Assembly: GCF_009649075.1 (NCBI RefSeq)
Contig: NZ_CP045737.1
Span: 2,852,001 to 2,916,000, forward strand
Source of the DNA: Aeromicrobium yanjiei
GTDB lineage: Bacteria; Actinomycetota; Actinomycetes; Propionibacteriales; Nocardioidaceae
Direction: 5' to 3'
DNA length: 64,000 nt
The notes under the pieces are model-generated. The model was not told the DNA's origin and did not search any database. It saw only the letters and a program-made list of their open reading frames with translations. Positions 30,929 through 41,988 of the stretch are shown piece by piece. Every line of letters starts with the position of its first letter. Within the stretch, counting starts at the first letter, position 1. The translations under genes and the position numbers were made by a program.

Positions 30929-30961
30929 GCCAAGGTCGTGTCAAGGTTGCGTGAAGGTGCT
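30929..30961 (+). promoter_or_regulatory. Three tandem 11-bp units upstream of the SAV_915-like gene (candidate KdpE-type site)
   Basis: GCCAAGGTCGT, GTCAAGGTTGC and GTGAAGGTGCT follow each other without gap. The array ends 35 bp upstream of a transcription start predicted at about 30996 from the -10 box TACGTT (30984-30989). The units match those at the kdp, kup and PhoU-like promoters. Eleven-bp phasing is typical of OmpR-family activators. Confidence 0.6.
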
Positions 30962-31029
30962 TCCGCCCGTCCCGCAGCGGTCCTACGTTCGTGATGTCAG
31001 CACGTCACCGGCTCGAGGAGCACCACCGC

Positions 31030-31306: not shown

Positions 31307-32323
31307 TCACAGCCAGCGCCGCCGCTTGAAGACGACGTAGAGGACGAGGCTCGTCAGGGCCATCGCCGCCAGCGCGGACGGGAAGCCGAATCTCCAGGCC
31401 AGCTCGGGCATGTGCTCGAAGTTCATGCCGTAGATCGTGCCGACCACCGTGGGTGCGAACAGGATCGCGGCCCAGCCGGAGATCTTCTTGACCTCCTCGC
31501 TCTGCGCGAGGCTCGTCTCGGCGAGATTGCGCATCTCGTCGTTCTGCCGCTGGCTGATCAGTGTGCTGTGGACCGTGAGCGCATTCTGCAGGATCGCCCG
31601 GAACGAGTCAGCGCGCTCGGCGATGCGGGCACAGTGCGCCCGTACGAGGCGCAGGCGGTGCTGCAGCTCGTGCTCGACGCCGTACTTGTCGAAGCCGTCC
31701 TCCAGGGACGCGATCATGTTCAGCAAGGAGTGGGTCGCCCGCTGGAACTCGATGACCTCACGCGCGAGCTCGTAGATCCGCCTCGAGACCGTGGCCTCGC
31801 CACGGAACAGCTGGTCCTCGATCTCGTCGATGTCGTCCTCGAGCCCACGCAGGACCGGCGCGTACTCGTCGACGACCTGGTCGATGATCGCGTACAGGAC
31901 CGACTCCGGACCGGCACGGAGCAGCTCCGCATCGGCCTCGAGGTCCCGCCGCACCCGGCCGAGATCAGGCGACTCGGCATGCCGGATGGTCACCACGAAG
32001 TCCGGCCCGACGAAGACGTGCAGCTCGCCGAACTCGACCTTCTCGGTCTCCTGGACGTACCTCGCAGGTCGCAGGACCGCGAACAAGGTGCTGCCGTAAC
32101 GCTCGAGCTTGGGACGTTGGTGGGCGGCGATCGCGTCGTCGACCGCCGACTGGTGCAGCTCGAACTCGGCCGCGACCGCGCAGATCTCGGCGACGTCCGG
32201 CCGGTAGAGCCCGATCCAGGCCATCCCCTGCTGCGACCGCAACAGCTCGAACGTGGCCTCGAGGGTCTCGGGGTTGGCCATGCGTCGCCCGCCGACGTAG
32301 ATCGCGTTGTCGATGAGGCTCAT
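31307..32323 (-). CDS. corA: CorA-family magnesium/cobalt transporter
   Basis: 338 residues. The long N-terminal cytoplasmic domain is followed by the stalk helix and two C-terminal membrane helices; the pore signature YGMNFEHMPEL lies between them. The C-terminus FKRRRWL is the usual basic end. ATG 32323 overlaps the kdpE stop by 4 bp, so corA is the last gene of a kdpFABCDE-corA operon. This would couple magnesium uptake to potassium limitation; coupling is inferred from layout. CorA forms pentamers gated by intracellular Mg2+. Confidence 0.94.
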   Translation of the reverse strand: MSLIDNAIYVGGRRMANPETLEATFELLRSQQGMAWIGLYRPDVAEICAVAAEFELHQSAVDDAIAAHQRPKLERYGSTLFAVLRPARYVQETEKVEFGELHVFVGPDFVVTIRHAESPDLGRVRRDLEADAELLRAGPESVLYAIIDQVVDEYAPVLRGLEDDIDEIEDQLFRGEATVSRRIYELAREVIEFQRATHSLLNMIASLEDGFDKYGVEHELQHRLRLVRAHCARIAERADSFRAILQNALTVHSTLISQRQNDEMRNLAETSLAQSEEVKKISGWAAILFAPTVVGTIYGMNFEHMPELAWRFGFPSALAAMALTSLVLYVVFKRRRWL

Positions 32324-32997
32324 GCGGGATTGAACCGGTAGCCCAGACCTGCCTCGGTGATGAAGAGCCGCGGTTCGCCCGGGTCCGGCTCGAGCTTGCG
32401 CCGGATGCTCGCGAGGTGCACGCGCAGGTAGTTCGTCTCCTGCTCGTAGCCGGGTCCCCACACCTCGTGCAGCAGGTCCGCCTGCCGCACGAGCCGCCCG
32501 CGGTTGCGGACGAGCACCGAGACGATCTTCCACTCGGTCGGCGTGAGGTGGATGATCACGCCGTCACGCGTGGCCTTGGAGTCGGCCGAGTCGATCAGCA
32601 GCCCGCCCACCTGCACGACCGGCTCGACCGCACCGGTGATGTTGCGCCGCGTCGCGGCCCGCACGCGCGCGAGCAGCTCCTCCATGCTGAACGGCTTGGA
32701 GACGTAGTCGTCCGCGCCGAGGTCGAGCGCCTCGACCTTGTCGTCGGACTCGGCCCGCGCGGACACCACGATGACCGGCACCTGACTGAAGGACCGGACC
32801 TGGCGCAGGACCGCGATGCCGTCCAGGTCAGGCAGGCCCAGGTCCAGCAGGATCGCGTCGGGCATGCACTCGTGGACGATCTGCAGCGCCGAACGACCGT
32901 CGGTGGCGATCTCCACGCCGTAGCCCCGCGCCTTCAGGTTGATGCTCAAGGTGCGAAGGATTGCCGGATCGTCGTCGACGGTCAGCACGAGGGTCAT
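32320..32997 (-). CDS. kdpE: Response regulator KdpE (OmpR family)
   Basis: 225 residues. The receiver domain has the acidic pocket VDDDP, phospho-acceptor Asp52 in ILLDLGLPD, conserved VSA and the KPF lysine. The C-terminal winged helix (LTPTEWKIVSVLVRNRGRLVRQADLL...TNYLRVHLASIRRKLEPDP...GLGYRF) is typical of OmpR/KdpE. Overlaps kdpD by 4 bp. It should activate kdpFABC when phosphorylated by KdpD. The 11-bp repeats upstream of kdpF, kup and other genes are its likely sites (inference). Confidence 0.96.
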   Translation of the reverse strand: MTLVLTVDDDPAILRTLSINLKARGYGVEIATDGRSALQIVHECMPDAILLDLGLPDLDGIAVLRQVRSFSQVPVIVVSARAESDDKVEALDLGADDYVSKPFSMEELLARVRAATRRNITGAVEPVVQVGGLLIDSADSKATRDGVIIHLTPTEWKIVSVLVRNRGRLVRQADLLHEVWGPGYEQETNYLRVHLASIRRKLEPDPGEPRLFITEAGLGYRFNPA

Positions 32998-35489
32998 GAC
33001 TGCTCCTGAGGTGTGGTGAGCTCGAGGACGAAGGTGAGTCCCCCGCCCGGGGTGTCCTCAGCGGTGAGGGTGCCGCCCATGGCCTCGGTGAGGCCCTGGG
33101 CCACCGCGAGCCCGAGGCCGACGCCGTCCCCGGCCGGGACGTCGCCGAGGCGTTGGAACGGCGCGAAGAGACGCTCGTGGTTCTCCTCGGCGATGCCCGG
33201 GCCGCTGTCCGCGATCCGGATCACGACGCCCCGAGACGTCCGGGACCCGTCGACCGTGATCGGCGCCGGCGGCGGTGAGTACTTGATCGCGTTCTCGCAG
33301 ATGTTGGCGACGACACGTTCCAGCAGGCCCGGATCGGCGAGCGCGACGAGCGACTCATCCAGGCGCACCGCGATGCGGCTGCCCTCGGCCACCGTGCCGA
33401 TCGCCTGGTGCACCGTGTCGTCCAGGTCGACCTCGGTGAGGGTGGGCCTGACGGCGCCGGTCTGGATGCGACTCATGTCGAGCAGGTTCACGACGAGCGC
33501 GTTGAGCCGGTCTGCGGAGTCCTCGATCGTCTCGAGCAGCTGCGCCTCGTCGTCCGGGGACCACCGGATGTCCGTGTTGCGCAGGCTGCCTGCCGCCGCC
33601 TTCACCGCCGCAAGGGGCGAGCGGAGGTCGTGCGAGACGGCCGCGAGGAGCGCGGTCCGTGTCTTGTTGCCCACCGCGAGCTGGGCCCGCTCCGTCTCGG
33701 CCTGGTGGGCTCGGGTCCGCTCGGCCAGGACGGCTGCGTGCGCGGCGTACGCCTTGAGCAGACGCCGGTCGGACGCGTCGAGCCTTCGTCCGCAGAGGGC
33801 CAGCGTCGTGGACTCGTCGATCGAGACCGTGACGTCTGCGGAATCCAACGAGGCAGGAGGAGCACCCGACGCGGCCATGACCTCCTGCCGACCGTCGACG
33901 GCGCCGAAGACCGCCGCACCCCTGGCCCCGAACAGCTCACATGCGCTCGCCAGCAGGGTCTCCACGTCGTCACCCGCGTGCAGGAGGCTGTGGGCGAGCA
34001 CGGTCAGGGCGTCGGACTCCGCCCGCGCCTTGCGGGCCAGCACCGTGTTGCGGGCGGCGCGGTCCACGACCGAGGCGACCGCGATGCCCACCACGAGGAA
34101 CAACCCGATCGCGAAGGCGTTCTCGGGATCGGCGATCGTCAGCGACCACAACGGCGGGGTGAAGACGAGGTTGAGCGCCAGGCTGCTGACGACGGCCGAG
34201 ATGATCGCCGGGACGATGCCGCCCACCAGCGCGGTGCCGACGACGACCGCCATCAGGACCATGGCCTCGGTCGGCAGGCCGTGCAGGGAATCGGTCAGGA
34301 CCAGCAGCTCGCTGGCGACCAGCGGCGCCAGGATGCCGAAGGCGTATCCCAGGTACAGGCGCCCGCGGCTCAGGTTGCTGGAGGCGCGCACCGTCGTGTT
34401 CTTGCGTCGCGCGTAGTCGTGGGTGACCACGTGCGCGTCGATGTCGCCCGACGCGGCGATGACCAGCTCGCCCACCCCAGGGCGCAGCAGGGTCGAGAGC
34501 CGGCCACGGCGGCTGGCCCCGATGATCACCTGGCTCGCGTTCTCGGCACGAGCGAAGTCCAGGATCGCCGTGGCCGTGTCGTCGCCGACGACGGTGTGCA
34601 GCGTGCCGCCGAGGTCCTCGGTGGTCCTGCGGAGCTTGAGCAGCTGGTCCGGGGTGACCCCGGACAACCCGTCGCGACGTGCGACGTAGAGCGCCATCCA
34701 CTCTCCTCCGGACCCGCGGGACGCGATGCGGGCGGCCCGGCGCAGCAGCGCCGCCGACTCCGGTCCGCCGGTCAGCGCGACCACGATGCGTTCGCGGGTG
34801 GCCCAGGTGGAGTCGATCTCGTGCTTCTCGCGGTACTGGTCGAGCCCCTCGTCCACCCGGTCGGCGAGCCACAGCAGGGCGAGCTCCCGCAGCGCGGCCA
34901 GATTGCCCTCACGGAAGTACTGCCCCAGGGCCACGTCGACCTTGTCGTGGCTGTAGATGTTGCCGTGCGCCATGCGCCGACGCAGTGCCTGCGGGCTCAT
35001 GTCGACCAGCTCGATCGCATCGGCCTGACGCACCACCCGGTCAGGCACGGTCTCGCGCTGACGCTGTCCCGTGATGGCCTCGACGACGTCGTTGAGCGAC
35101 TCCAGGTGCTGGATGTTGACTGTCGTGATCACGTGGATGCCGGCTGCCAGGATCGCCTCGACGTCCTGCCACCGCTTCTCGTGCAGCGAGCCGCCGATGT
35201 TGGTGTGCGCGAGCTCGTCGACCAGCACGACCTCGGGCCGCCGCGCGAGGACGCCGTCGAGATCCATCTCGAGGTAGGTGGTGCCGCGGTAGTCCATGGA
35301 CCGCCGCGGCACCACCTCCAGGCCGGCGAGCGCCTTGGCGGTGTTCTCGCGGCCGTGCGTCTCCACGACGCCGACGACCACGTCGGTCCCCCGGGCGACC
35401 CGCCGCTGCGCCTCGTCGAGCATCGCGTACGTCTTGCCGACTCCCGGGGCAGCGCCGAGGTAGACCCGGAGCTTGCCTCGGGAGTCCAC
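32994..35489 (-). CDS. kdpD: Sensor histidine kinase KdpD
   Basis: 831 residues from GTG 35489, 2 bp after the kdpC stop. Domains in order: KdpD N-terminal domain with Walker A GAAPGVGKTYAML and VVLVDELAHTN (1-210), a universal-stress-like domain (~230-370: IVVALTGGPESAALLRRAARIA), four membrane helices of the DUF4118 region (~385-490), a GAF-like linker, the HisKA site AAVSHDLRSPLAAVK with His620, and the HATPase domain (NICENAIKYSPP, IADSGPGIAEENH, GVGLGLAVAQGLTEAMGG). It senses potassium limitation or turgor and phosphorylates KdpE. Confidence 0.96.
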   Translation of the reverse strand: MDSRGKLRVYLGAAPGVGKTYAMLDEAQRRVARGTDVVVGVVETHGRENTAKALAGLEVVPRRSMDYRGTTYLEMDLDGVLARRPEVVLVDELAHTNIGGSLHEKRWQDVEAILAAGIHVITTVNIQHLESLNDVVEAITGQRQRETVPDRVVRQADAIELVDMSPQALRRRMAHGNIYSHDKVDVALGQYFREGNLAALRELALLWLADRVDEGLDQYREKHEIDSTWATRERIVVALTGGPESAALLRRAARIASRGSGGEWMALYVARRDGLSGVTPDQLLKLRRTTEDLGGTLHTVVGDDTATAILDFARAENASQVIIGASRRGRLSTLLRPGVGELVIAASGDIDAHVVTHDYARRKNTTVRASSNLSRGRLYLGYAFGILAPLVASELLVLTDSLHGLPTEAMVLMAVVVGTALVGGIVPAIISAVVSSLALNLVFTPPLWSLTIADPENAFAIGLFLVVGIAVASVVDRAARNTVLARKARAESDALTVLAHSLLHAGDDVETLLASACELFGARGAAVFGAVDGRQEVMAASGAPPASLDSADVTVSIDESTTLALCGRRLDASDRRLLKAYAAHAAVLAERTRAHQAETERAQLAVGNKTRTALLAAVSHDLRSPLAAVKAAAGSLRNTDIRWSPDDEAQLLETIEDSADRLNALVVNLLDMSRIQTGAVRPTLTEVDLDDTVHQAIGTVAEGSRIAVRLDESLVALADPGLLERVVANICENAIKYSPPPAPITVDGSRTSRGVVIRIADSGPGIAEENHERLFAPFQRLGDVPAGDGVGLGLAVAQGLTEAMGGTLTAEDTPGGGLTFVLELTTPQEQS

Positions 35490-35491
35490 AG

Positions 35492-36079
35492 TCAGCTCGC
35501 CGCCTGCGTCGCGGCGTCCTTGACGGCCACGTTGAGCCGCAGGACGTTGACGCCCGGCTCGCCGAGGAAGCCGAGCGAGCGCCCCTCGGTGAAGCGGTCG
35601 ACCAGGGACCGGACCGCAGACGCGCTCAGTCCGTTGGCCTCGGCCACCCGGTCGACCTGGATGTCGGCGTACGCCACAGAGATGTGGGGGTCCAGTCCCG
35701 ACCCGGACGCCGTGACGGCGTCGGGCGGGACCTCGGACGGATCGACCGACTCCGTCTTCGCGACCGCCGCACGACGCTCCTCGATGGCCGCGATCAGATC
35801 CGTGTTGGACGGCCCGAGGTTGGAGGGAGCCGAGGCCAGGGTGTCGTAGTCGTTGGGCGACGGACGCGAGTGGAACCACTCGTCGCCCTCGAAGTTCTGA
35901 CCGATGATGCCCGAGCCGACGACCCGCCCGTCCATCGTCACCGGCTGCCCGTCGGTCTGGTGGTGCACGGTCCGACCGAGTCCCCAGACGGCCGCCGGGT
36001 AGACGATGCCGAGGATGACGGTGAAGACCAGGAGGATGCGCAGTCCCGCCAGGGACTGACGGCCGAAGTCTTTGATCAT
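35492..36079 (-). CDS. kdpC: Potassium-transporting ATPase KdpC subunit
   Basis: 195 residues. A single N-terminal membrane helix (LAGLRILLVFTVILGIVYPAAVWGL) precedes an extracytoplasmic domain with the KdpC signatures SGIIGQNFEGDEWFHSRPS, ASAPSNLGPSN, PPDAVTASGSGLDPHISV and GEPGVNVLRLNVAV. It joins KdpA and KdpB in the high-affinity K+ pump and assists K+ delivery. ATG 36079 lies 5 bp after the kdpB stop. Confidence 0.96.
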   Translation of the reverse strand: MIKDFGRQSLAGLRILLVFTVILGIVYPAAVWGLGRTVHHQTDGQPVTMDGRVVGSGIIGQNFEGDEWFHSRPSPNDYDTLASAPSNLGPSNTDLIAAIEERRAAVAKTESVDPSEVPPDAVTASGSGLDPHISVAYADIQVDRVAEANGLSASAVRSLVDRFTEGRSLGFLGEPGVNVLRLNVAVKDAATQAAS

Positions 36080-36084
36080 GCTGA

Positions 36085-38094
36085 TTACCCGATTCCTGGG
36101 ATGGTGGAGATGAGCAGGTCGATGAGCTTGATGCCGATGAACGGTGCGATGACGCCACCGACGCCGAACACGAGGATGTTGCGCCGCAGGACCGCCGAGG
36201 CGGACGCAGGACGGAACTTGACGCCGCGCAGGGCCAGCGGGATCAGCGCCACGATCACCAAGGCGTTGAAGATGACCGCCGAGAGGATGGCCGACTGGGG
36301 AGTGGCCAGCCCCATGATGTTGAGCGCGTCGAGCGACGGGTAGGCGACCATGAACATCGCCGGGATGATCGCGAAGTACTTCGCGACGTCGTTGGCGATC
36401 GAGAACGTGGTCAGCGCGCCGCGGGTGATGAGCAGCTGCTTTCCGATCTCGACGATGTCGATGAGCTTGGTCGGGTCGGAGTCGAGGTCGACCATGTTGC
36501 CGGCCTCCTTGGCCGCCGACGTGCCCGTGTTCATCGCCACGCCGACGTCCGCGGCGGCCAGCGCCGGCGCATCGTTGGTGCCGTCGCCGGTCATCGCGAC
36601 CAGGCGTCCCCCGGCCTGCTCCCTGCGGATCAGGTCCATCTTGTCCTCGGGCGTGGCTTCGGCCAGGAAGTCGTCGACACCGGCCTCGGCGGCGATCGAC
36701 TTGGCGGTGAGGGCGTTGTCGCCGGTGACCATGACGGTGCGGATGCCCATCGATCGCAGCTGGGCGAAGCGCTCGACCATGCCCTCCTTGACCACGTCCT
36801 TCAGGTGGATGACACCAAGCACGGTGCTCGTGTCGCCGTGCTTGGACGCCACGACGAGCGGGGTGCCGCCGTCGCTGGAGATCCACTCGATGACGTCGGT
36901 CAGCTGCGACGGCATCGTCCCGCCGACCCAGCCGTGGATCGCCGATCCCGCGCCCTTGCGGATCTGGGTGCCGTCCGCGAGGTCGACACCCGACATGCGG
37001 GTCTGCGCGGTGAACTCGACGAACGACGCACCCTGCGGCAGGTCGTTGTCGTCCGCGCCCTCGGCCAGCGCCAGCGCGACGATCGATCGTCCCTCGGGGG
37101 TCTGGTCGGCCAGGCTGGAGAGCCGCACGACGTCGCGCAGCTCGGTGTCGGTGACGCTGCCGATCGGGACGAAGCGGGCGGCCTGCCGGTTGCCGTACGT
37201 GATGGTGCCGGTCTTGTCGAGCAGCAACGTGCTGACGTCTCCCGCGGCCTCGACCGCGCGGCCGGACATGGCCAGCACGTTGACCCGCACGAGGCGGTCC
37301 ATGCCGGCGATGCCGATCGCGCTGAGCAGCGCTCCGATCGTGGTGGGGATGAGGCACACGAGCAGCGCGATCAGCACCGTCAGGTCCTGCGGGGCTCCGG
37401 CGTAGTCGGCCATCGGTGCCAGGGTGGCGACCGCGAGGACGAACACCAGCGTCAGGCTGACCAGCAAAATCGACAGGGCGATCTCGTTGGGGGTCTTGCG
37501 GCGCGACGTGCCCTCGACCAGCGCGATCATCTTGTCGAGGAACGTGCTGCCGGGGGCCGACGTGATCTTGACGGTGATCTCGTCCGACAGCACCTTCGTG
37601 CCGCCGGTCACCGCTGACCGGTCGCCGCCGGCCTCCCGGATCACCGGGGCGGACTCGCCGGTGATGGCCGACTCGTCGACCGAGGCGACTCCCACCACGA
37701 CGTCACCGTCGCCGGGGATGACCTCGCCCGCCGCGACGAGCACGAGGTCACCGACCTTCAGCTGCGTGCCGGGCACTGACGACTCGGTGCCGTCGGGCCC
37801 GACGACGCGCGCGATCGTGTCGGTACGGGCCGCGCGCAGCGAGGCAGCCTGCGCCTTGCCGCGGCCCTCGGCGACGGCCTCGGCGAGGTTGCCGAAGATG
37901 ACCGTCAGCCACAGCCAGATCGCCAGGGAGATCGTGAAGGTGCTCGGATCGGCGAAGACCGCGATCGTGGTCGCGACCGAGCCGAGCCAGACGATGAACA
38001 TCACCGGGCTGCGCCACAGGTGGCGCGGGTCGAGCTTGCGAAGCGCTGCCGGCAGCTGGGCCAGCATCTGCTTCAGCAGGATGGAAAACGTCAT
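36085..38094 (-). CDS. kdpB: Potassium-transporting P-type ATPase KdpB subunit
   Basis: 669 residues. The phosphorylation motif DKTGTIT has its Asp at 293. Other P-type ATPase signatures are TGESAPV in the actuator domain, [10 protein letters not shown] for ATP binding and [28 protein letters not shown] in the P domain. Membrane helices flank these domains. KdpB hydrolyses ATP to drive K+ uptake through KdpA. Overlaps kdpA by 4 bp (ATGA). Confidence 0.97.
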
Positions 38095-39749
38095 GACAGT
38101 GCCTCCGCGATGGGACCGAGAGCCAGCGCCGGGAAGAAGGTCAGGCCTGTGATGAGCAGGATGACGCCGACGAGCAGGCCCCCGAAAAGGGGTGTGGTGG
38201 TGGGAAGGGTGCCTGCGGTCTCGGGCACCTTGGCCTGCTTGGCCAATGAACCGGCGAGCAGCAGGACCAGCACGATGGGGATCAGACGGCCCAGCAGCAT
38301 CGCGAGGCCGATCGTGATCTGGAAGAAGTCCGAGGTCACGGTGATGCCGCCGAACGCGCTGCCGTTGTTGTTGGCTCCCGAGGTGTACGCGTAGACGACC
38401 TCGCTGAACCCGTGGCCGCCCGGATTGCCCATCGCGTCCGGCGTGCTGGCCAGCGAGATGGCGGTTCCGACGCCGACGAGGATGATCGCCGGGACAGTCA
38501 GCACGTACAGCGCGACGTACGTCATCTCCTTCGAGCCGATCTTCTTGCCCAGGAACTCAGGCGTGCGCCCGACCAGGAGCCCGGCGATGAACACCGTGAG
38601 GATCGACATGATCAAGATGCCGTAGATGCCCGAGCCGACGCCGCCGGGAGTGACCTCGCCGAGCATCATGTTGAGCAGCGCCATGCCGCCGCCGACCGGG
38701 GTCATGGAGTCGTGCGACGCGTTGACCGCGCCCGTGGAGGTGCCGGTCGTCATCACGGCGAAGAGCGACGACGCCCACTCCCCCAGACGTGTCTCCTTGC
38801 CCTCCATCGATGCCCCGGCGACCTGGGCGGCCTGCGAGTGCGCGCCGACCTCGGCCCAGGTCACGACCGCGACGAACGTGGCCATGAGCGCGACCATCGC
38901 ACCGAGGACCGTCAGGCCCTGGCGGCGGTTGCCGAGCATCGTGCCGAGCGTGCGGGTGAGGCAGATCGGGATGAGCAGGATCAAGAAGATCTCGAACAGG
39001 TTGGTGAAGCCGTTGGGGTTCTCGAAGGGATGGGCCGAGTTGGCGTTGTAGAACCCGCCGCCGTTCGTGCCGAGGAGCTTGATGACCTCCTGGCTCGCGA
39101 CGGGCCCGCCCGTGATGGTCTGGCTGTGACCGGCCAACGTGTCGACTGACCTGTCCGTGAAGTTCTGCATGACGCCGTTGCCGGCGAGGACGAGGGCGCC
39201 CACGACGGCGATGGGCAGCAGGATCCGGATGGTCCCGCGGGTCAGGTCGACCCAGAAGTTGCCGAGCTCGCCGCTGCGCACGCGGACGAAGCCACGGATC
39301 AGCGCGACGGCCACCGCGATGCCGACGGCGGCGGACAGGAAGTTCTGCACCGCCAGCCCGCCGGCCTGCGCGGCGAAGCCCAAGGTCGACTCACCGCCGT
39401 ACGACTGCCAGTTCGTGTTGGCCACGAACGAGCTCGCCGTGTTGAACGACATCCACCACGGCATGCCGGGCAGGTCACGGCTGAACGGCAGGTGCGCCTG
39501 GCCGAGCAGGATGGCCATCAGGACCACGACGCTGACGACCGAGAAGCCGACCACGCTCATCGCGTAGGCGCGCGGGCTCTGCTCGGCATCGGCGTTGACG
39601 CCGCCGAGGCGGTAGATGCGTCGTTCCACGCGGGAGTGACGCGGGGTCGTGAAGACCTTGGCCATGTAGTCACCGAGCGGCACGTAGACGAGGGCGAGGA
39701 CGCCCACGAGCGTGACGAGGGTGAGGAGGCCGCTCCAGGTGTCGGACAT
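38091..39749 (-). CDS. kdpA: Potassium-transporting ATPase KdpA subunit
   Basis: 552 residues with about ten membrane helices and four degenerate selectivity-filter loops, for example [44 protein letters not shown] and NNNGSAFGG. The ~552-residue length is standard. KdpA belongs to the superfamily of K+ transporters and binds K+ with micromolar affinity. The ATG shares its A with the kdpF stop codon (TGATG). Confidence 0.97.
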
Positions 39750-39838
39750 CAGAAACGCTCCGGGAAGATCAGGGCCGCCAGCAGGTACGCCACGAGCGCG
39801 ACGACCAGGACGATCAACAAACCGCTTTCGATACTCAT
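39749..39838 (-). CDS. kdpF: KdpF small subunit
   Basis: 29 residues, one membrane helix: MSIESGLLIVLVVALVAYLL followed by a short tail ending FPERF. This matches KdpF peptides, which stabilise the KdpABC complex. It is the first gene of the operon. No Shine-Dalgarno is visible. TTGACT lies at -13 to -8 of the ATG, the same position as before the CFA-synthase gene, so a leaderless start is possible but the hexamer is atypical. Confidence 0.9.
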   Translation of the reverse strand: MSIESGLLIVLVVALVAYLLAALIFPERF

Positions 39839-39873
39839 GGGCGTCAGTCAATCGCCGGGTCCGGGCGGATCCG

Positions 39874-39916
39874 CCGGCTTTGACAGCCTCCTAGCGGGTC
39901 TTGACGCGTTCTTAGC
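39874..39916 (-). promoter_or_regulatory. 11-bp-unit array upstream of kdpF (candidate KdpE site)
   Basis: On the minus strand, GCTAAGAACGC (39916-39906) is directly followed by GTCAAGACCCG (39905-39895). After 10 bp comes GTCAAAGCCGG (39884-39874), one base out of strict phase. The last unit ends 36 bp before the kdpF ATG. The sequence matches the units at kup, the PhoU-like gene and the SAV_915-like gene. Confidence 0.6.
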
Positions 39917-39960
39917 GCGGGCGTCCTGCGACGCCTGCAGACCCCCTGCCGGCGACCGGC

Positions 39961-39982
39961 GTCAAGATCGCGTCAAGATGTG
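39961..39982 (+). promoter_or_regulatory. Two tandem 11-bp units upstream of kup (candidate KdpE site)
   Basis: GTCAAGATCGC and GTCAAGATGTG are adjacent direct repeats. They end 36 bp before the kup start codon, which is also the predicted transcription start, so a bound activator would abut the -35 region. Confidence 0.65.
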
Positions 39983-40005: not shown

Positions 40006-40011
40006 TAGGTT
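40006..40011 (+). promoter_or_regulatory. -10 hexamer TAGGTT of kup
   Basis: TAGGTT lies at exactly -12 to -7 of the GTG start at 40018. No Shine-Dalgarno is present, predicting a leaderless kup mRNA. Confidence 0.55.
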
Positions 40012-40017
40012 GAGCAG

Positions 40018-41931
40018 GTGACCTCTTCCCGCCCGGCCTCACGCGACGTCCTTCGACTCGCGGTCGTGGTGGGCGCCCTCGGCGTCGTGTTCGGCGACAT
40101 CGGCACCAGCCCGATCTACACGATCCAGACCGTCTTCAACCCCGACGACCCGCATCCCGTCCCGGTGACCGACGCCCACGTGCTGGGCGTGGTCTCGCTG
40201 ATCCTGTGGTCGATCACGCTGATCGTGACCATCACGTACGTGATGCTGGCGATGCGTGTCGACCACGACGGCGAGGGCGGCATCATGGCGCTGATCTCGC
40301 TGGTACGCCGCTGGCTGGGCGACGGCAGGCGCGGTGCAGCGGTCGTGCTCGCAGGGCTCGGGCTCTTCGGCGCGTCCCTGTTCCTCGGCGACAGCATGAT
40401 CACCCCGGCGATCTCGGTGCTGTCGGCGGTGGAGGGCGTCAAGACGATCGAGCCCGGTTTCGAGCCGTGGATCGTGCCGGTCACGGCCGCGATCATCGTG
40501 CTGCTGTTCTCGGTGCAACGTCACGGCACAGCCGTCGTCGGCAGATTCTTCGGGCCTGTGATGATCGCGTGGTTCGCAGCGATCGGTGCGTGCGGCGCGT
40601 GGGGCATCACGAAGGACGTCGACATCCTCAAGGCCGTCTCCCCCGTCTACGCGATCGACTTCCTGGCCGGCAGCTTCCACTACGCGTTCTTCGCCTTGGC
40701 CGCGATCGTGTTGGCGGTCACCGGCGCCGAGGCGCTGTACGCCGACATGGGCCACTTCGGACGCCGCCCGATCGCGACCGGCTGGCTCTTCCTGGTGTTT
40801 CCCGCGTGCGCCCTCAGCTACATGGGACAGGGAGCACTGATCCTGGAGGATCCGGACAACATCAGCGCCCCCTTCTTCCTGCTCGCCCCGGAGTGGGCGA
40901 GGATCCCGCTGATCGTCCTCGCGACAGCCGCGACGGTGATCGCCTCGCAGGCGGTGATCACGGGCGCCTTCTCCGTGACCTCGCAGGCCGCGCAGCTCGG
41001 CTACCTGCCGCGGCTGCGCATCCTCCACACGTCGTCGTCGGCGCGTGGACAGATCTACGTGCCCGGCATCAACTGGCTCCTGCTCATCTCGGTGCTCACG
41101 CTCGTCTTCGCGTTCCGCACCTCGGCCGCGCTCGCGTACGCGTTCGGCATGGCGGTCACCGGCACGATCACCATCACGACCATCTTGTTCTTCTACGTCG
41201 CCCACCGGGTGTGGAGCACACCCACGTGGGTCCTGGCGCTGGCGGCGGTCCCGCTCCTGGCCGTCGACGCGTTGTTCATCGGCGCGAACCTCACCAAGCT
41301 CGTCCACGGCGCGTGGCTGCCGCTCGCCATCGCGGTCACCGCCTTCACGGTGATGACGACCTGGCAGCGCGGCCGGTCGCTCGTGACCTCACGCCGTGAG
41401 CAGATGGAGGGACCACTGCAGGATTTCGTGGACGATCTCGACGACGAGGCCAAGGCGCCCGCGGTCGTCCCGGGCACCGCGATCTTCCTCAACCGAGGGA
41501 CGACCACTCCCCTGGCGCTGCGTGCGAACGTCGAGCGCAACCACGTCCGGCACGAGCACGTGGTCATCGCGACGATCGAGATCGAGCCCGTGCCCCGGGT
41601 GGACCCGGCCGACCGCGTCCAGGCCGACTCGCTCGGCCACGAGCAGGACGGCATCACCCGCGTGATCGTCCGGTTCGGTTATGCCGAGCACGCGGACGTC
41701 CCGGCTGCCCTTGCGCTGCTCAGTCCCGAGCAGACCGAGGGACCGGTCGACCTGGAGGACGCGACCTACTTCCTGTCGCGGATCGAGCTGCGCGTCGGGT
41801 CCGACGAAACCATGGCGACCTGGCGCAAGCGGCTGTTCATCGCCACGTCGCACGTCACCGCCGACGCCGCCGACCACTTCAGCCTGCCTCGCGACCGGGT
41901 GGTCGTGCTCGGATCGCACGTCGACGTCTGA
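40018..41931 (+). CDS. kup: KUP/HAK-family potassium uptake protein
   Basis: 637 residues. The N-terminal half has twelve membrane segments and Kup signatures: GALGVVFGDIGTSPIYT, DHDGEGGIMALISL, GLFGASLFLGDSMITPAISVLSAVEG and EALYADMGHFGRRPI. The C-terminal ~170 residues are hydrophilic and cytoplasmic. Kup proteins are proton-coupled, constitutive K+ importers. Here the gene is divergent from kdpFABCDE-corA and shares the intergenic region with two 11-bp-repeat arrays, so both importers may answer to KdpE (inference). Confidence 0.96.
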   Translation: MTSSRPASRDVLRLAVVVGALGVVFGDIGTSPIYTIQTVFNPDDPHPVPVTDAHVLGVVSLILWSITLIVTITYVMLAMRVDHDGEGGIMALISLVRRWLGDGRRGAAVVLAGLGLFGASLFLGDSMITPAISVLSAVEGVKTIEPGFEPWIVPVTAAIIVLLFSVQRHGTAVVGRFFGPVMIAWFAAIGACGAWGITKDVDILKAVSPVYAIDFLAGSFHYAFFALAAIVLAVTGAEALYADMGHFGRRPIATGWLFLVFPACALSYMGQGALILEDPDNISAPFFLLAPEWARIPLIVLATAATVIASQAVITGAFSVTSQAAQLGYLPRLRILHTSSSARGQIYVPGINWLLLISVLTLVFAFRTSAALAYAFGMAVTGTITITTILFFYVAHRVWSTPTWVLALAAVPLLAVDALFIGANLTKLVHGAWLPLAIAVTAFTVMTTWQRGRSLVTSRREQMEGPLQDFVDDLDDEAKAPAVVPGTAIFLNRGTTTPLALRANVERNHVRHEHVVIATIEIEPVPRVDPADRVQADSLGHEQDGITRVIVRFGYAEHADVPAALALLSPEQTEGPVDLEDATYFLSRIELRVGSDETMATWRKRLFIATSHVTADAADHFSLPRDRVVVLGSHVDV

Positions 41932-41955
41932 TCCGGGGCCGGCCGCAAGGATCGC

Positions 41956-41988
41956 GTCAAGACGGCGGCAGGGTTGCGTCAAGCACCT
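41956..41988 (+). promoter_or_regulatory. Three phased 11-bp units upstream of the PhoU-like gene (candidate KdpE site)
   Basis: GTCAAGACGGC, GGCAGGGTTGC and GTCAAGCACCT follow each other without gap. The middle unit is degenerate but shares 9 of 11 positions with the central unit at 30940-30950. The array ends 35 bp before the GTG start at 42023, the same distance as at kup. Confidence 0.6.

Follow-up and report, generated by a model that had tools for sequence, protein, structure and literature searches.

The analysed window, a stretch of 64,000 nucleotides at positions 2,852,001-2,916,000 of a 3.68-Mb actinobacterial genome whose nearest named kdpA loci belong to Nocardioides, carries kdpFABCDE (minus strand; kdpF ATG at 39838, kdpE last) and kup (plus strand; GTG at 40018), as listed in Table 1. 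A predicted CorA-type magnesium transporter ORF (31307-32533, minus strand) adjoins kdpE downstream on the same strand and is possibly co-transcribed with kdp. Riboswitch control of kup was considered and ruled out, since an Rfam search of the region gave no match.

Table 1. Genes, repeat units and promoter elements in the window (window coordinates).
Feature	Coordinates	Strand	Basis
kdpE	32320-32997	-	
kdpD N-terminal domain	34854-35480	-	
kdpA, kdpB, kdpC, kdpD, kdpE operon	32320..39770	-	
kdpF, 29 aa, ATG at 39838	39749..39838	-	TIGR02115, 33.1 bits, over cut-off
Putative weak kdpF -10, TTGACT, 44 bp from unit 3 start	39846..39851	-	sequence; inference
kdpF array unit 4, GTCAAAGCCGG	39874..39884	-	sequence; relatives
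kdpF array unit 3, GCTAGGAGGCT, degenerate, starts 10 bp past unit 2 start	39885..39895	-	relatives' units at equal offset
kdpF array unit 2, GTCAAGACCCG	39895..39905	-	sequence; PWM
kdpF array unit 1, GCTAAGAACGC	39906..39916	-	sequence; units 1+2, 27.9 bits
KdpE box (predicted) unit 1, kup array, GTCAAGATCGC	39961..39971	+	sequence; foreign-kdpF PWM, 35.2 bits
KdpE box (predicted) unit 2, kup array, GTCAAGATGTG	39972..39982	+	sequence; same PWM
kup -10 hexamer TAGGTT (-12 to -7), 45 bp from unit-pair start	40006..40011	+	sequence, conservation
kup, low-affinity K+ importer	40018..41931	+	NCBIfam PRK10745 E=1e-185, TIGR00794 E=2e-159, both under curated cut-offs
Four-unit 11-bp array GCAAGG/GTCAAG/GGCAGG/GTCAAG before ORF downstream of kup	41945..41988	+	17.6 bits; conservation
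Putative -10 CAGGAT of post-kup ORF, 44 bp spacing, GTG 42023	42011	+	
ORF after kup, ~192 aa	42023..42601	+	no Pfam family; weak DUF4332 match, E=0.05, under cut-off
Three-unit 11-bp array GCCAAG/GTCAAG/GTGAAG, -10 TACGTT at 30984	30929..30961	+	19.0 bits; orthologues' arrays
SseB-like small protein, 90 aa	31030..31302	+	weak Pfam SseB match, E=0.06, under cut-off

At kup the array consists of one pair of 11-bp units, separated from the GTG by 35 bases; both units and the TAGGTT hexamer at -12 were found where the first-pass annotation had placed them. The block CTAGGTT before kup is also kept in three relatives (G044, G033 and G034), and the kup transcript is predicted to be leaderless, starting at the GTG. 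On the opposite strand, the kdpF array lies 35 bases before the ATG and reads GCTAAG, GTCAAG, GCTAGG and GTCAAA at offsets 0, 11, 21 and 32, that is, with 11-10-11 spacing. Here three units had been claimed, with a 10-bp gap between the second and third; the three units and their position hold, but their number does not, because relatives carry GTCAAG, GTCAGG, GCCAAG or GCTAGC within this gap, and its core GCTAGG (39895-39890) is counted as a degenerate fourth unit.

Two further arrays of the same period were found in the window. The four-unit layout before the ORF after kup is kept in G000, G044 and G034. The SseB-like ORF occurs only in G000, G033, G034 and G044 (76-82% identity), and is preceded by three 11-bp units in G000 and G033, by a pair of units spaced 22 bp apart in G044 and by a weaker arrangement in G034. 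The working labels 'PhoU-like' and 'USP-like' were dropped, as they had no Pfam support.

The promoters share a common geometry. With the -10 hexamers picked by eye and the distances computed from the listed coordinates, the start of the promoter-proximal pair lies 44 bp from the putative -10 at kdpF (TTGACT), 45 bp at kup (TAGGTT), and 44 bp at both the SseB-like ORF (TACGTT) and the ORF after kup (CAGGAT). At all four promoters, hexamers again taken by eye, a site abuts the -35 region in phase with the -10, as with class II activators of the OmpR family, and this spacing fits the earlier reading of the units as OmpR-type direct repeats next to -35. Relative to the start codon, the -10 occupies about -13 to -7 at three of them (kdpF, kup and the ORF after kup), therefore leaderless or nearly leaderless transcripts are predicted, that of kdpF included.

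The repeats, tandem GTCAAG-like half-sites at an 11-bp period, are almost certainly KdpE binding sites. Nearly all Nocardioides kdp loci carry a box at a constant distance upstream of kdpF, with the consensus GTCAAGATCGC-GTCAAGACC-GTCAAG/GTCAGG/GCTAGC-N5-GTCAAG and with unit 1 some 77 bp upstream of the kdpF ATG. Within 330 bp upstream of kdpA, 36 of 41 kdp loci have a pair with two mismatches or fewer, a count that misses G044 and G070 solely through the search range. Boxes before kdpA or kdpF also occur in Flexivirga, Pseudonocardia and two other families of the order; the box in this form is absent from the f3/g15 loci, a large genus of the order, and from most sampled Rhodococcus loci. The region before kdpF in f3/g15 (L022, L036, L041, L043) has no GTCAAG; the word GTGAGAG recurs there instead, which could be a KdpE box that has diverged. 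Structures of E. coli KdpE are among the best PDB matches of the window KdpE.

Orthologues of kup, with 79-86% identity, are present in six members of the genus. The pair lies 56 bp before the kup GTG in G044, where kup adjoins kdp, and in G033, where kup and kdp are on different contigs; compared by eye with G000, allowing a one-base shift, 14 and 15 of the 17 positions of the pair are equal. In alignments made by eye, the -10 block is conserved at the relatives' kup genes and the upstream sequence is at background. Because the pair is kept in two relatives, one of them with kup far from kdp, we assign it to kup. In G034 no pair stands directly before kup, but the small ORF upstream of kup has a three-unit array in front of it; the pair is absent in G021, which has kdp, and in G043 and G003, both without kdpA. 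A box upstream of kup is thus independent of linkage to kdp, as seen in G044, in the unlinked G033, in G034 through the preceding ORF and in the distant G074 (34.4 bits). Among some 50 kup promoters across the class and order, only G074 and these relatives have a strong box, which is missing in about 45. Since nearly all other sampled kup genes have no box, the predicted KdpE control of kup is a lineage-specific addition, a rewiring rather than a general feature of actinobacterial kup.

The genome contains a second, orphan KdpD-KdpE pair (C2:937.2-940.4 kb, L168) with no kdpFABC beside it, as does G044. Its KdpE (C2:939762) is 69% identical to the window KdpE and groups in the KdpE tree with the main Nocardioides clade, while the window KdpE groups with G044_1 and G034. 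An alternative is that a different OmpR-family protein, with this orphan KdpE the best candidate, is the main binder of the kup array, which would then respond to a different sensor from that of kdpFABC. The existence of such complete pairs in this genome and in G044 speaks for this, as does G033, which has the kup box and solely a regulator of the orphan type; the recognition helices are near-identical but differ at a few positions. However, both KdpE clades adjoin kdpF promoters with an identical GTCAAG box, therefore sharing of sites is expected rather than splitting, and G034 has only the type found in the window, so that we consider a separate regulator for kup rather unlikely. Either or both KdpE proteins may bind the kup box. 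The orphan locus, possibly a remnant of an ancestral kdp locus, adjoins an HpcH/HpaI-type lyase gene, and a lyase neighbour is also found at the kdp relics or replacement operon in G003 and G026.

The two arrays of the intergenic region are just 44 bp apart, and the plus-strand pair might be a distal part of a kdpF enhancer, unrelated to kup. This shared-enhancer reading is highly improbable and was ruled out: the pair stays with kup in G033, where kup and kdp lie on separate contigs; kup of G044 is preceded by a pair of its own, some 0.8 kb away from the kdpF array; the orientation of the pair and its 44-45 bp spacing point to the kup -10; and most kdpF promoters lack it.

The arrays were scored with a position weight matrix (PWM) of 22 columns, built from 36 sites taken only from kdp loci (kdpF promoters) of other genomes. 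In the window, kup ranked first with 35.2 bits, followed by kdpF (27.9), the SseB-like ORF (19.0) and the ORF after kup (17.6), and the next-best site, within kdpB, reached 12.1 bits. The numbers of such sites expected by chance genome-wide under a base-composition model are 8e-6, 3e-3, 0.65 and 1.3, respectively; the kup and kdpF arrays stand by score alone, and those before the SseB-like ORF and after kup need the support of conservation. By pattern search, the kup site is the sole exact GTCAAGN5GTCAAG in the genome, and further matches at one or two mismatches are mostly within long open frames. A sequence-only genome profile search, in which 150 of the 3540 candidates were scored and weak sites may have been missed, placed kup first (E 0.001) and kdpF second (E 0.004); the array after kup came third (E 1.2). 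The scatter of the motif over random genome positions, named beforehand as evidence against its function, was looked for and not seen, the exact pair being unique and kup and kdpF heading the profile search. The single word GTCAAGA is not rare, with 13 occurrences in the window against 3 expected; however, the unique exact pair, the low genome-wide expectations for kup and kdpF and the conserved fixed spacing make chance similarity in G+C-rich intergenic DNA scarcely conceivable, and it was ruled out by the comparative data.

Given the observed sequence, conservation, spacing and agreement with a footprinted KdpE site, the kdp-kup intergenic region very likely contains two separate, back-to-back KdpE-dependent promoters, for which we infer binding, activation and a response to K+. 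We propose that at low K+ KdpD would phosphorylate KdpE, whose dimers would occupy the 11-bp direct GTCAAG repeats head to tail, two dimers on the four units of kdpF (11-10-11) and one on the two units of kup. At both promoters the proximal pair would cover about -57 to -36, next to -35, where KdpE could contact RNA polymerase in class II activation. The poor -10 of kdpF suggests that this promoter is tightly KdpE-dependent, and the good -10 of kup suggests a basal expression that KdpE would boost. From the geometry we infer activation, not repression; KdpE as a repressor is known from S. aureus, according to work cited in PMC5401905. Because predicted KdpE sites precede both, K+ starvation probably raises Kdp and Kup together.

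Boxes were also found away from kdp and kup. In G026, which has no kdpA, an APC-type permease gene has a box 56 bp upstream and is succeeded by genes for a kinase and a KdpE homologue (57% identical); this run (L217, 4827-8864) possibly replaces the Kdp pump. The histidine kinase there has a DUF4118-like membrane part and no PF02702 match. In G023, G035 and G021 (L144, L211, L212) a box precedes a stand-alone DUF4118 membrane protein, whose gene lies near downstream of kdpE in G023 and G035. G003 (L128) and G012 (L129) have lost kdpFABC and keep intact four-unit boxes beside kdpE fragments; these arrays are therefore relics of a recent operon loss that left the promoter behind. Arrays in G009 and G001 were rejected as boxes, as they look like coding or chance matches. 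The first-pass proposal of KdpE control over kdp as well as kup gains comparative support from the fixed kdpF box, the match in M. smegmatis, the kup pair in G044 and G033, and the box in G026.

Plausible, and evenly balanced, is a broader reading: in one Nocardioides lineage KdpE would be a wider regulator of K+ acquisition, driving from promoters of like geometry kdpFABCDE, kup and three small genes (the SseB-like ORF, the ORF after kup and the relatives' ORF before kup), while elsewhere in the genus it would drive a permease of the APC type (perhaps a K+ importer like KimA) that stands in for KdpFABC. KdpDE has mostly been described as a dedicated kdpFABC switch, Kup and Trk being constitutive; a KdpE box conserved at kup would be evidence that rewiring can bring a second importer into this regulon. 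The actinobacterial KdpE box defined here is usable for regulon prediction and flags small uncharacterised genes as likely to act in K+ homeostasis.

In E. coli, Kup is constitutive (PMC5458449), and the KdpE site likewise comprises two 6-bp direct repeats, 5 bp apart, for one OmpR-family dimer; however, its half-sites, TTTATA and TTTACA, are AT-rich and form a single pair (PMC3264566). Sinorhizobium fredii KdpE also activates kdpFABC, but was tested on the kup promoter and did not bind it (PMC9239096), in contrast to the control of kup predicted here. The PhoP sites of M. tuberculosis (PMC4832192) have 7-bp repeats with a 4-bp spacer, and hence an 11-bp period; they belong to another regulator and are likened here by period. 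In M. smegmatis, trk genes are down under K+ limitation, and the study concerned reports no kup target, and its text lacks the term 'direct repeat' (PMC5401905). It mapped by footprint and EMSA a minimal KdpE site of 22 bp at PkdpF, CCGTAAAGAAACCATCAAGGCC, in which GTAAAG-AAACC-ATCAAG (GTAAAG-N5-ATCAAG) can be read. Upstream of kdpF, this site has two units instead of the four seen here, but shares the 11-bp direct repeat of (G/A)T(A/C)AAG; the Nocardioides matrix gives it 17.4 bits.
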